Shown here: positions 2,892-62,105 of the stretch, piece after piece
Layout: every line of letters starts with the position of its first letter
Numbering within the stretch: the stretch's first letter is position 1
Assembly (NCBI RefSeq): GCF_900079725.1
Contig: NZ_LT599032.1
Span: forward strand, 1,420,871 to 1,484,870
Direction of reading: 5' to 3'
DNA from: an uncultured Dysgonomonas sp.
GTDB taxonomy: Bacteria > Bacteroidota > Bacteroidia > Bacteroidales > Dysgonomonadaceae
Length of the DNA: 64,000 nt
Made by a program: the position numbers and the translations under genes
The notes under the pieces: generated by a model
The model's database searches: none
What the model was told of the DNA's origin: nothing
The model's input: only the letters and a program-made list of their open reading frames with translations

Positions 2892-3902
2892 CTAAGCTTT
2901 ATTATATACAACCTCGTTTTTCAACTCTTTACCGTTGAAGAAATCAAGGATATTATTCATTGTTGTGTGCGCAATATTCGACATTGCCTCCTGAGTAAAA
3001 AAGGCCTGATGAGATGTCACGATCACATTATTGAAAGACAGCAACCGGGCAAGTACATCATCAGTCATCACACTATCAGAATGGTCTTCATAAAAATAAG
3101 CCCCTTCTTCTTCATACACATCTAAACCTGCATAACCGACCTTACCGCTAAGCAACCCTTCTATCAGGTGCCTGGTATGGATCAACTTTCCACGGCCAGT
3201 ATTGATTATCATCACACCTTCTTTCATTTTGGCTATGGATTCATCACAGATAAGATATTCAGTTTCTTTTGTCAGCGGGCAATGTAATGTAATAATATTG
3301 GCATTAGCATATAATTCATCCAGCGACACATATTTAACACCTGTAGCATCAGCCCATTTTGTATCCGGATATAAGTCGTAAGCCAGAACATTCATACCTA
3401 ATCCCTGAAAAAGACCTGTAGCGACCTTCCCTATCTTACCGGTACCTATCACTCCGATAGTCTTGCCATACATATCGAATCCCTGAAATCCTATCAAAGA
3501 AAAGTTACCGTCGCGTGTACGCAAAAATGCCCGATGAACCTTTCTGTTAAGACAAAGCATCAGGGCCAAAGTATGCTCAGCGATAGCATGGGGGGAATAA
3601 TCAGGAACACGTACCACCTTTATGCCTTTTCTGGCGGCAGCAGCTATATCTACATTATTAAAACCGGCACAACGTAATGCTATCAGCTTTACACCATAAG
3701 AATGGAGCTTAGTCACAACCGCCTCATCTACCTTTGCATTTACAAAAATACAAACAGCATCTGTACCACTTGCCAAAAGCACATTATTCTTATCGAGATG
3801 TTCCTTATGATAGACCAGTTCGAAACCATATGCTTCGTTCGCCTTATTGAAAGTAGCCATATCATAAGGCTTTGCGTCAAAAACCGCTATTTTATATGCC
3901 AT
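2892..3902 (-). CDS. ldhA: D-lactate dehydrogenase / 2-hydroxyacid dehydrogenase
   Basis: A 336-residue NAD-dependent D-2-hydroxyacid dehydrogenase, most like fermentative LdhA, reducing pyruvate to D-lactate. Visible features: substrate-binding halves at both ends, a Rossmann motif GTGKIG (153-158), catalytic Arg in NTGRGKL (R237), the acid residue in the DVYEEEG segment (about 265) and the catalytic His in VTSHQAFFT (about 298). The start is the ATG giving MAYKIAVFDAK, 25 codons inside the longest frame; the upstream part overlaps the promoter. The promoter at 3947-3978 reads into it, and the amidase gene follows after 30 bases. Confidence 0.9.
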   Translation of the reverse strand: MAYKIAVFDAKPYDMATFNKANEAYGFELVYHKEHLDKNNVLLASGTDAVCIFVNAKVDEAVVTKLHSYGVKLIALRCAGFNNVDIAAAARKGIKVVRVPDYSPHAIAEHTLALMLCLNRKVHRAFLRTRDGNFSLIGFQGFDMYGKTIGVIGTGKIGKVATGLFQGLGMNVLAYDLYPDTKWADATGVKYVSLDELYANANIITLHCPLTKETEYLICDESIAKMKEGVMIINTGRGKLIHTRHLIEGLLSGKVGYAGLDVYEEEGAYFYEDHSDSVMTDDVLARLLSFNNVIVTSHQAFFTQEAMSNIAHTTMNNILDFFNGKELKNEVVYNKA

Positions 3903-3946
3903 TGCTTTACCTACTATATATATTATTAATCCTTTATACCTGATTG

Positions 3947-3978
3947 CAAAAGTAATTAAAATAACCTTTATCCTCAAA
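3947..3978 (-). promoter_or_regulatory. Promoter of ldhA (Bacteroidetes -33/-7 type)
   Basis: On the minus strand TTTG (3975-3978) is followed after 20 bases by TACTTTTG (3947-3954), matching the phylum consensus TTTG-19-TAnnTTTG. The predicted transcription start is near 3941, about 40 bases before the ldhA ATG. Confidence 0.7.
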
Positions 3979-4318: not shown

Positions 4319-4432
4319 AGGGTGACACTTATCATTCATTTGCTAATATGCTAATTTACAAATCTGCTAATCCATTTTTTCAAAGAGCTAATAGCTATCA
4401 GCTAAAGGCTAACAGCTATCTACATAGATAAA
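4319..4432 (-). repeat. Heptad repeat island, copy R1 (modules A and B)
   Basis: Read on the minus strand from 4432: an anchor GTTTATCTATGTA, a run of 7-base words (ATAGCTG, TTAGCCT, TTAGCTG, ATAGCTA, TTAGCTC) ending TTTGAAA (module A), then module B with CAGATTTGTAAATTAGCATA through ATGATAAGTG. This matches copy R2 (32863-32985) over more than 100 bases, including a 31-base identical core, but in the opposite orientation. The rest of the gap (4433-4560) shows nothing recognisable. Confidence 0.85.
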
Positions 4433-18010: not shown

Positions 18011-18073
18011 TTGTATATAAGAATTTTACTGTTAAAAAAACAGGAAGGATATGTATAATGCAGTGCAGAAAAT

Positions 18074-18122
18074 GGTTTAGCATTTTTTCATGTGGTTGCA
18101 ATCAATACAAATCTATCCACTT
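18074..18122 (-). promoter_or_regulatory. Candidate SAM-II riboswitch in the metK leader
   Basis: On the minus strand: P1 arm GTGG (18117-18120), a loop with GATTTG and TTGCAA, closing arm CCAC (18092-18095), an A-rich linker, then GCTAAACC (18074-18081). The order GTGG-GATTTG-TTGCA-CCAC-GCTAAA mirrors the compact SAM-II (metA) pseudoknot aptamer, known from alphaproteobacteria and some Bacteroidetes. The gene is metK, and the aptamer starts a few bases after the predicted transcript start. Weak point: I cannot find a clear P2 pairing between the loop and the bases after GCTAAA. Confidence 0.55.
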
Positions 18123-18131
18123 AATTAGCTG

Positions 18132-32862: not shown

Positions 32863-32985
32863 TTTATCTATGTATATAGCTATTGGCTATTAGCTTATAG
32901 TTCTTTGAAAAAAAATAATTAACAGATTTGTAAATTAGCATATTAGCAAATGAGTGATAAGTGTAACCTTTGTTACCTTTTAACA
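32863..32985 (+). repeat. Heptad repeat island, copy R2 (modules A, B and start of C)
   Basis: From the anchor ATTTATCTATGTAT the words ATAGCTA, TTGGCTA, TTAGCTT, ATAGTTC, TTTGAAA follow in strict 7-base steps (one word fewer than the other copies), then module B (CAGATTTGTAAATTAGCATA ...) and GTGTAACCTTTGTTACCTTT. A further fragment with GTGTTACCTTTGTTAC is at 33053-33068. It fills most of the 488-base gap before grpE. The remaining bases (33070-33266) show nothing clear besides the likely grpE promoter region. Confidence 0.85.
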
Positions 32986-33266
32986 TGTCGTAAGTCCTAA
33001 AAAATAAGTACTAGTTGAAGAACTGTATTTCTGTTTATTGTTTACTGTAAATAGTGTTACCTTTGTTACTTTTTTTATTTAACCCGAAAATATAAAGGAA
33101 TCGTATGGAGTTTTTATAACCTCGCGGCATCAGTACATTAATTCTTGCAACTTTGGCAAGCCTTTTGCTGTAAATAAAATATATAATTAGACAACGGCAG
33201 ATCACGCGATAAAGATTTGCCACATATCTTTTTATAATAAACTGTAAATAAAATAGATACTAAAAT

Positions 33267-42491: not shown

Positions 42492-42814
42492 AGTTAACAG
42501 TTAACAATCCATAGCTTGTAAAAACTTCGCGCCTTTGCGTCTTTGCGTGAAATAAAACAGAGTATCTTGTAACCCCTAACTGTTAAAAGGTAACAAAGGT
42601 AACAGATATATCAGTTAACAGTTAGCAGTCAACAATATTTCACGCAGAGACGCTAAGGCGCAAAAGGTAACAAAGGTTACAAAGGTTACACTTTTTTACT
42701 TATTACTTTTTACCCTCTCTGTAAGTCCCCATTGGGGGATTGAGGGGGCCATTTCAATATTTCAAAGAGCTAAAAGCTAACAACTAAAAGCTATCAGCCA
42801 TATACATAGATAAA
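42492..42814 (-). repeat. Heptad repeat island, copy R3
   Basis: Read from 42814 on the minus strand: module A (GTTTATC TATGTAT ATGGCTG ATAGCTT TTAGTTG TTAGCTT TTAGCTC TTTGAAA), a GC-rich palindromic module (CCCCCTCAATCCCCCAATGG), AAGTAATAAGTAAAAAAGTG, TAACCTTTG repeats, TTGCGCCTTAGCGTCTCTGC, GACTGCTAACTGTTAACTGA, and more words to about 42492. It is an inverted copy of R4 over about 220 bases. A second, shorter GCGCCTTTGCGTCTTTGCGT (42530-42549) faces CGCAGAGACGCTAAGGCGC (42643-42661), making an internal inverted repeat. It occupies the divergent ruvB-PAP2 gap. Confidence 0.88.
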
Positions 42815-42908
42815 CTTTTACAAAAAAAATAAAAGAGACAAATATTATTATGGGATATAACCATAATATATTTCCTTTGCATTTCCAATTCATTATAAAT
42901 GAACAATT

Positions 42909-47985: not shown

Positions 47986-48254
47986 GTTATTTCTTTACAT
48001 TAATACGAATTAAGATGTGCGCTTTCTTATACATACCAATTCCTATACTATGCGTAATTCATGGATACATCTTATAAAATACAGACAGTTATTATTTTCG
48101 GAATTCTTTATCTATATATCAAAGGTTCTTTGACATCTAATTCCTGAATTATAAATATTGGGGTAAAGATAACAGATAAAAAAGGGGTAAAAGTGTAAAG
48201 TTTGTCAACTTTTCGACTAAAATCAAGATATATATAGATTTAGGCACTTCTATA

Positions 48255-48325
48255 AAATAAGAAAAGGTTGTCATCCCGACAACCAATCTTCATTGTTAAC
48301 CTTAAATCTAATACCATGAAAAACA
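48255..48325 (-). ncRNA. Candidate small RNA with its own promoter and terminator
   Basis: Minus strand: -7 element TATCTTTG (48331-48338), predicted start near 48325, about 40 bases of leader (with TTTCATGGTATTAGATTTAA), then a perfect stem GGTTGTC / GACAACC (48266-48284) with loop GGGAT, followed by TTTTCTTATTTTA. The predicted RNA is about 70 bases. It ends 320 bases before leuS, so it is not simply a leader. A 25-codon frame starting ATGGTATTAGAT runs through the hairpin, but is probably incidental. I believe similar sequences occur in other Bacteroidales; this is recall and was not searched. Confidence 0.5.
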
Positions 48326-48330
48326 CAGTA

Positions 48331-61580: not shown

Positions 61581-61680
61581 GTACAATTTACTAAATTATG
61601 AAAAACAAAAGATGCTATTCGGTTTTTATTCTTTCAAAACATCGGGGCAAACGCATGGGGTTTTATCTTTTGGGGAGAAG

Positions 61681-62105
61681 TTTATCTATGTATATAGCTT
61701 TTAGCCGTTAGCTGATAGCTATTAGCTCTTTGAAAGATTGATAGCCCCCTCAAACCCCGAAGGGGGGGCTTACAATGAAGGTAAAAGTAATAAGTAAAAA
61801 AGTGTAACCTTTGTTACCTTTTGCGCCTTAGCGTCTCTGCGTGAAATATTGTTGACTGCTAACTGTTGACTGTTTGCTAATATATCTGTTACCTTTGTTA
61901 CCTTTTATATAGCACCTTTCGTATAACTATCTGTGTACCTTGCGGTAAAGAGTTTTAGCCACCAAATACACGAAGGAAATCACAAAGGATAAAAAACTGT
62001 TACATGTGTTACCTTTTGAAGAAAGGCACGAGTAAACAAGATACAAGTTGTTAACTGCTAACTGATGACTGTTAACTAATATATCTGTTACTTTTTGCAC
62101 TTTAG
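61681..62105 (+). repeat. Heptad repeat island, copy R4 (longest)
   Basis: Module A (GTTTATC TATGTAT ATAGCTT TTAGCCG TTAGCTG ATAGCTA TTAGCTC TTTGAAA), a palindromic GC module (AGCCCCCTCAAACCCCGAAG), AGTAATAAGTAAAAAAGTGT, TAACCTTTGTTACCTTTT, TTGCGCCTTAGCGTCTCTGC, then words TTGTTGA CTGCTAA CTGTTGA CTGTTTG CTAATAT ATCTGTT (61850-61891) and a second set at 62047-62089 (TTGTTAA CTGCTAA CTGATGA CTGTTAA CTAATAT ATCTGTT). It occupies the 684-base divergent gap between pyrH and the next gene; 62106-62188 and 61581-61680 show no other structure. Confidence 0.9.

Follow-up and report, generated by a model that had tools for sequence, protein, structure and literature searches.

Heptamer islands in the window

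The window, a stretch of 64,000 nucleotides, comes from a genome of the Dysgonomonas group and carries four copies of the anchor TTTATCTATGTA, at 4421-4432 and 42803-42814 on the minus strand and at 32863-32874 and 61681-61692 on the plus strand. These copies define the islands R1 to R4, numbered by position, in each of which the anchor is followed by four or five words of the form NNTAGCY, the element CTTTGA and variable text with a variable right end; 9-mer doublets such as TGTTACCTTTGTTACCTTTT lie inside the variable text of R2, R3 and R4. The first-pass annotation had reported four islands with a shared anchor and 7-base words, and all four are confirmed. Below, G000 denotes our own genome, other G-numbers the genomes compared with it and L-numbers individual loci.

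R4 occupies 61681-62105 on the plus strand and contains no ORF in G000. Its bipartite box (61662-61692) consists of a first half, TTTATCT (61662-61668), and a second half that is the anchor TTTATCTATGTA itself (61681-61692). The leader words TATAGCT, TTTAGCC, GTTAGCT, GATAGCT and ATTAGCT follow at 61693-61727, CTTTGA (61728-61733) closes the array, and doublets lie at 61803-61822, 61887-61906 and 61998-62017. The TTTATCTAT core is retained at the orthologous site of G010, G007 and G005.

R3 lies on the minus strand upstream of ruvB, with its box at 42803-42833 (first half 42827-42833), the words TATGGCT, GATAGCT, TTTAGTT, GTTAGCT and TTTAGCT at 42768-42802 and doublets at 42672-42690 and 42585-42604. 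R2, on the plus strand upstream of grpE-dnaJ, spans 32863-32902 with its anchor and four words (32875-32902) and has doublets at 32962-32981 and 33055-33074, but no recognisable upstream half-box. In R1 (4386-4432, minus strand) five words at 4386-4420 follow the anchor, the upstream half-box is partial, and the island is directed toward a 2-hydroxyacid dehydrogenase ORF at 2892-3977. The counts of NNTAGCY words between anchor and CTTTGA are 5, 4, 5 and 5 in R1 to R4, in keeping with the annotated shortage of one word in R2, and R3 does lack one CTGTTAA-type heptamer relative to R4, as had been described.

A fifth island at 48088-48213 on the plus strand has a box (48088-48118, second half TTTATCTATATA), a CTTTGA element (48128-48133) and a doublet TGTAAAGTTTGTCAACTTTT (48194-48213) without a clear word array. 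Its 33-base box stretch is identical in G010, where one doublet half differs.

A match to a known Rfam family had been named beforehand as an outcome that would refute the annotation; at the gathering threshold Rfam gives two hits in the whole window, neither covering an island. A SAM-II riboswitch lies on the minus strand at 18067-18126, and the fifth island adjoins an FopS sRNA (48256-48326, minus strand). A link of the words to RbpB/FopS was considered and dropped; the accessible part of PMC11697453 gave no motif usable for them.

Periodicity and turnover of the words

The annotation had placed the words in strict 7-base phase and suggested an autocorrelation check for period 7. We counted 4-mer recurrence in the 37 intergenic pieces of the window (8,026 bp) against 30 shuffles and found peaks at lag 7 (133 vs 63.5 +/- 9.4, z 7.4) and lag 14 (z 5.1). 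Coding DNA has no rise at either lag (4.9 and 4.7 per kb, raw rates without shuffle comparison). The 7-base phase is thus supported. Lags 8, 9, 12 and 16 are likewise raised (z 4.3, 4.7, 3.7 and 3.5), so that some words are not heptamers. Off-phase changes are common in G010, a sister species.

In our own genome, 22 anchors are followed by CTTTGA, and for 19 of them the spacing between the two is divisible by 7; it is exactly 35 nt in 15 of all 24 copies, and two further anchors have no CTTTGA within 78 nt. The corresponding count in G010 is 18/35, with three more copies lacking CTTTGA. With the modal 35 nt excluded, multiples of 7 make up 4/7 spacings in our genome (p 0.010) and 9/26 in G010 (p 0.008), p values that treat anchor copies as independent, which copies are not. 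Whole-word changes are enriched by this measure, which uses exact-anchor copies only, so that variants are hidden.

Of the 35-nt arrays, 24 in all, we aligned 21 (15/15 from our own genome, 6/9 from G010); they show a well-conserved TAGC core and a third word that starts with TTT in 18 sequences and is exactly TTTAGCT in 13. Copying word by word, as had been proposed, is not supported: words hold their positions, and the equal-length orthologues L008/L096 and L004/L102 differ by substitutions within words. Two of the 24 own-genome anchors (L011 and L015) have no word array. The same heptamers had been thought confined to non-coding DNA by their stop codons, yet in G010 eight heptamers in phase with one another are part of the reading frame of one TerS-like ORF, close to the C-terminal end.

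The text behind the anchor differs between species. Among the 32 anchors of G005, CTTTGA follows within 78 nt in three, TAGC words in one and AATTATG-like words in many; two of the 32 lie inside ORFs. The 42 nt past the anchor have a mean identity of 0.53 among G000 copies and 0.35 among G005 copies, against 0.27 between the two genomes. At R4, the G000 and G005 orthologues share 0.21 identity, compared with a mean of 0.64 between R4 and the other 23 G000 copies; the values for R2 are 0.33 and 0.49. Since text is more alike within a genome than between orthologues, it appears to be homogenised or spread within the genome.

The exact anchor occurs 24 times in our own genome compared with 2 for the reversed control. 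Among 101 family genomes it is abundant only in G000, G005 and G010 (24, 32 and 40 copies), with at most 7 in any other, where TAGC-like words follow 2/5 anchors in G007, 0/7 in G012 and 0/1 in G030 (one of 6 inspected). A search of 84,980 species for the anchor-plus-words pattern returned eight stretches, all from Dysgonomonas sp. UBA7710, in a collection from which near-window records were possibly excluded. At ruvB, the exact anchor is found only in G000 and G010 among 23 loci inspected; at grpE, G000 has the anchor, G010 a variant, and G005 an exact anchor farther upstream. On the one chromosome of our own genome 20 anchors are forward and 4 reverse, and in G005 16 and 16. At L026-L029 and L037, CTGTTAA-type words form inverted arms within leaders that, by their motifs, resemble cobalamin riboswitches.

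A bipartite box shared with phage-derived genes

The annotation had counted the anchor into the word series. The anchor TTTATCTATGTA is instead the second half, in variant form, of a bipartite promoter-like box common to TerS-like, portal and TerL genes. Of 50 TerS-like ORFs searched over 400 nt upstream, 47 are preceded, at a distance of 23-273 nt, by the box core or by a form that differs from it in one base; 46 of these 47 have A at -16 and 42 have T at -15, and exact TTATCTATA is present upstream of 45/50. These loci comprise 20/20 from G000, 13/15 from G010, 13/18 from G005, 2/3 from G007 and 2/13 from G017, and those without a box are L235 (a 65-aa fragment), L246 and L208 (at a contig edge). 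In control sets of ATG ORFs of at least 100 aa, exact TTATCTATA occurs within 300 nt upstream in 1/69, 4/80 and 2/73. The TTATCTAT core stands upstream of the portal gene in 25/30 loci and of TerL in 17/28 (2 further loci are cut).

The pattern AT-N15-TTATCTATA-N4-AAA has 33 forward and no reversed matches in our own genome, of which 13 have a TerS-like ORF downstream, 10 are located at TerL or within the portal region (4.97-5.05 Mb) and 10 fall elsewhere. G005, G017 and G010 have 62, 33 and 29 matches, respectively, with 0-1 reversed in each. G006 and G024 have none, and because their portal boxes read TTATCTATT, the pattern undercounts. Across the 25 genus genomes, TerS-like counts correlate with both anchor counts (rho 0.70) and box counts (rho 0.65).

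The own-genome islands carry A at -16 in 22/24 and T at -15 in 17/24. Their box departs from the gene box in two respects, having G rather than A as base 10 and a spacer rich in T where the gene box has TCAAA, and it could be a look-alike. A TAnnTTTG promoter at -17 was rejected, with the exact motif there in only 2/24 own-genome copies. Before the TerL genes of G016 and G019 (L368 and L372), TAGC words lie immediately ahead of the start, with no box core within 260 nt.

TerS-like genes at island sites

The R4 site is ORF-less in G000, G005 and G007. In G010, the orthologous island contains a 242-aa ORF resembling phage terminase small subunits (TerS), with matches to the TerS family PHROG 309 (E 4.7e-9) and to Pfam HTH_Tnp_1_2 (1.6e-7). 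A comparison with 50,697 phage records yields just two relatives, both of them entries for Porphyromonas phages (33.7% over 83 residues). Foldseek against predicted viral proteins gives five hits at E <= 0.001, the named ones being terminase small subunits, with a best E of 1.1e-6 and low TM-scores (0.34/0.42); the predicted model has a pLDDT of 73.6 and a pTM of 0.33. Fold matches in the PDB to phBC6A51 and Sf6 TerS are weak (E near 1), as are profile matches to Sf6 TerS (E 0.27-0.58). The protein has an N-terminal HTH and is related to TerS by sequence or fold.

Island and gene exchange at three loci in total. At L072 and L080, matched between species only through their orientation and the gene that flanks them downstream, G005 is ORF-less while G000 and G010 (and at one locus also G007) have a TerS-like gene. 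The ORF-less state at these two loci belongs to G005, the more distant genome by RuvB identity. The pairs L093/L250, L103/L192 and L064/L192 were rejected as exchange loci; they have a common flanking gene in different orientation. The exchange suggests that a site of this type can exist either as an island or as a TerS-like gene, be it by loss or by gain of the ORF. The leaders of four TerS-like genes (L189, L219, L224 and L225) contain words of island type.

TerS-like matches number 20 in G000, 18 in G005, 15 in G010 and 13 each in G017 and G023, with 0-6 in the other 20 genus genomes. In G000 they are dispersed, and 18 of the 20 are ORFs of at least 150 aa. Their dN/dS ranges from 0.02 to 0.46 (16 pairs).

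Portal and TerL genes

Boxed genes in G010 and our own genome include portal (PHROG 11226, 3e-65) and TerL (PHROG 2, 5e-34). A boxed protein of PHROG 24921 (function unknown, 5e-73), which resembles head maturation proteases less strongly (1e-5), is followed by a virion-structural-like protein (PHROG 11320, 7e-60; PHROG 1623, 8e-8). Two boxed tape-measure-like proteins have weak matches (1e-4 and 6e-6) and a third has none, and several further boxed proteins of the two genomes are without any match. In G010, the boxed units are interspersed with sucC-like, TonB-receptor, TPR and metallo-lactamase genes, and units of mixed orientation amid cellular genes are seen in stretches of G010, G007, G006 and G012.

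Portal is present in 31/101 family genomes and 22/25 of the genus, as a single match in 19 genus genomes; in G022 there is another copy with 47% identity, in G006 a weak additional match, and in G028 the match falls into two pieces. TerL occurs in 34/101 family genomes and 23/25 of the genus, with a single match in 20. Among 393 genomes drawn evenly from the order, seven have portal at 1e-20, and five of the seven belong to this family. Portal, TerL, TerS-like matches, boxes and anchors are all missing from G021 (98% complete); from G020, a genome only 55% complete, all of these but the anchors are recorded as missing. Portal identity tracks RuvB identity with rho 0.86 and TerL identity with rho 0.67 (20 genomes). 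The phage head and packaging genes are present in few copies and inherited vertically. Purifying selection on both is strong, with dN/dS of 0.010-0.033 for portal (3/5 pairs computable, 2 saturated) and 0.029-0.071 for TerL (3/4 pairs, 1 saturated; dS 3.07 in the pair L361/L363). Phage relatives are remote, at about 23% identity to Bacteroides phages for portal and 46.6% at best for TerL, and the best NCBIfam matches are the PBSX portal and PBSX TerL models, both under the curated cut-offs.

Identity that follows kinship, low dN/dS and scattered units, with some 446 kb between portal and TerL in our own genome, would favour domestication. Against domestication may be set the portal-TerL distance of 6-24 kb in six genomes (G006, G012, G014, G022, G024 and G025), two IMG/VR viral contigs that carry portal at 82-85% identity, and the metallo-lactamase/TPR neighbourhood of portal, which is common to only 3/30 loci (L331-L333), so that in other species portal has apparently moved or been rearranged.

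Interpretation

We lean, somewhat beyond even chances, towards the reading that R1-R4 belong, without an ORF of their own, to a scattered family of phage-derived, GTA- or PBSX-like cassettes with a shared box. Other cassettes carry an orphan TerS-like gene behind this box, which is also present before portal, TerL and other phage structural genes inherited vertically by the lineage. The box is probably a promoter and the words would be part of a 5' leader RNA. The words may arise through tandem slippage in this leader, drift by point mutation and gain or lose whole units; homogenisation among the cassettes of one genome would then lead sister species to differ in text behind the same box. Our confidence is reduced because G019, G026 and G028 have portal and TerL without a TerS-like match, and because L072 has no upstream half-box.

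If the cassette reading is right, unexplained intergenic repeats would be the readable trace of a tamed virus, and one box would mark phage-derived genes together with empty sites, so that regulon candidates could be listed from the sequence of related genomes. It would also provide a concrete candidate for gene-transfer particles in Bacteroidetes and an unusual case in which one cell has about 20 dispersed TerS-like paralogues.

It is possible, though we think it doubtful, that the islands are working cis elements, their boxes pulling ruvB and grpE-dnaJ into a phage-derived regulon and their arrays forming a regulatory leader hairpin. Islands do face a gene on the same strand (21/23, 26/30 and 29/35; 45/50 for TerS-like loci) more often than the 0.55-0.65 predicted from gene maps, in counts that leave out three islands inside ORFs and four without a gene. 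G000 and G010 have an identical TTTATCTAT core at R1-R4, which were paired by synteny, as well as at the fifth island, which was located by its exact letters. R1 folds back better than shuffles (z -2.47), and covariation in the 21 aligned arrays is 0.168 vs 0.130 +/- 0.013 in shuffles, a value reached by 4/500. However, the other arrays fold weakly (z -1.52, -1.28 and -0.15). The covariation comes mainly from one column pair (columns 9/23, A-U in 12 sequences and U-A in 6), in which the U-A class may represent one inherited event, and both-sided change is seen in just 2/13 pairs, a number that 469/500 shuffles reach. An RNA structure was rejected on these grounds. Presence of the islands also varies among close species, the ruvB and grpE loci of G007 having no anchor. 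Since a conserved promoter-like sequence is intact between island and gene at both ruvB and grpE, where it comes after R2, an action of the islands on these genes is unsupported. For the same reason, the anchor was rejected as a native leader of ruvB or grpE: this sequence, whose promoter-like nature is inferred from conservation, separates the island from the gene.

Cyanobacterial STRR heptamers are 7-nt tandem words in non-coding DNA. The islands, likewise tandem 7-nt units in intergenic DNA, could be plain repeats of this or the TAACTGA type grown by polymerase slippage at any site that tolerates them, with the anchor merely a preferred start, an explanation that we judge unlikely. The resemblance to other bacterial heptamer repeats that the annotation had drawn is nevertheless supported. 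Consistent with plain repeats, AACTGTTAACTG occurs 16 times in the genome and never reversed, partly away from anchors; lag-7 and lag-14 recurrence is found in intergenic DNA sampled from 80 kb of G010 (z 8.5 and 8.6) and, more weakly, from 60 kb of G007 (z 3.6 and 3.1); and words at the same locus differ between sister species. Unlike STRR, the words here are degenerate around a conserved TAGC core and follow a fixed box. TAACTGA direct repeats are described, in the accessible part of the report, as intergenic heptamers of patchy distribution across species, including some Bacteroidetes, whose forward word stops all three frames and which occasionally occur within ORFs (MacGregor 2015, PMC4679880). 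In contrast to the islands, they consist, as far as that part goes, of one exact heptamer, with no shared promoter-like box or link to TerS. The window contains no exact TAACTGA doublet and seven matches at 1-2 mismatches (0.92 expected), and 1/396 loci fetched has an exact direct repeat. Plain repeats leave unexplained the box before portal, TerL and TerS-like genes, and also why orthologous loci have an island in one species and a TerS-like gene in another.

Within the cassette reading, the gene set would be most like that of a gene transfer agent or PBSX-like particle, and particles and a packaging role may be envisaged. As in GTAs and PBSX, portal and TerL are mostly single copy, diverge in line with host kinship and experience strong purifying selection, and in G010 units of the portal region are interleaved with cellular genes. 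Unlike GTAs and PBSX, the system here has scattered units with their own boxes, about 20 TerS-like paralogues and ORF-less heptamer-leader islands. Lateral transduction is described in Bacteroides, and GTA activity in other groups, in the accessible part of PMC12946183. No gene transfer agent of Bacteroidetes was reported among the matches listed in our literature search, which covered few subscription journals. A working gene transfer agent in Dysgonomonas and allied genera, with cassettes and islands as chromosomal packaging-start sites and the TerS paralogues reading the words, strikes us as improbable. Were it true, the genome would be marked beforehand at dozens of places for packaging. 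Phage pac sites are recognised by TerS, and the islands would be putative counterparts of them.

Three TerS-like pairs are near-identical duplicates, L230/L231 (97.6% over 838 bp), L233/L234 (97.5% over 979 bp) and L252/L253 (95.9% over 754 bp), alike from 20-74 nt upstream of the box to 31-52 nt beyond the stop codon; in G017, the likeness of L192 and L211 starts at the box and ends at the stop codon. With their unrelated flanks, the three pairs would suit REP or miniature mobile elements that depend for their movement on a transposase acting in trans, for instance RAYT, but this account has a slim chance, as no target-site duplications are seen by eye, the ends vary between duplicate pairs, and the R4 box is common to four species, so that the site is old. 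The linked RAYT gene that the annotation had proposed to look for is not supported either: Y1_Tnp has two matches in G005, one in G000 and none in G007 or in G010, the genome richest in anchors, and a RAYT was rejected as a generator that the islands do not need.

A doublet follows within 420 nt of 29/47 TerS-like ORFs. The likeness of L230/L231 reaches the doublet, which is of the R4 type and forms the end of this duplicated unit; the other duplicate pairs end elsewhere. At the 3' ends of TerS-like units the two halves of the doublet tend to change together, reading mostly TGTTACC/TTTGTTACC in G000 and G010 and mostly TGTCAGG/TTTGTCAGG in G005, with exceptions. Elsewhere in our own genome, the 540 bases around 889113 and 1780787 (L031 and L036) are identical, suggesting a duplicated region, presumably transketolase-like by its reading frame.
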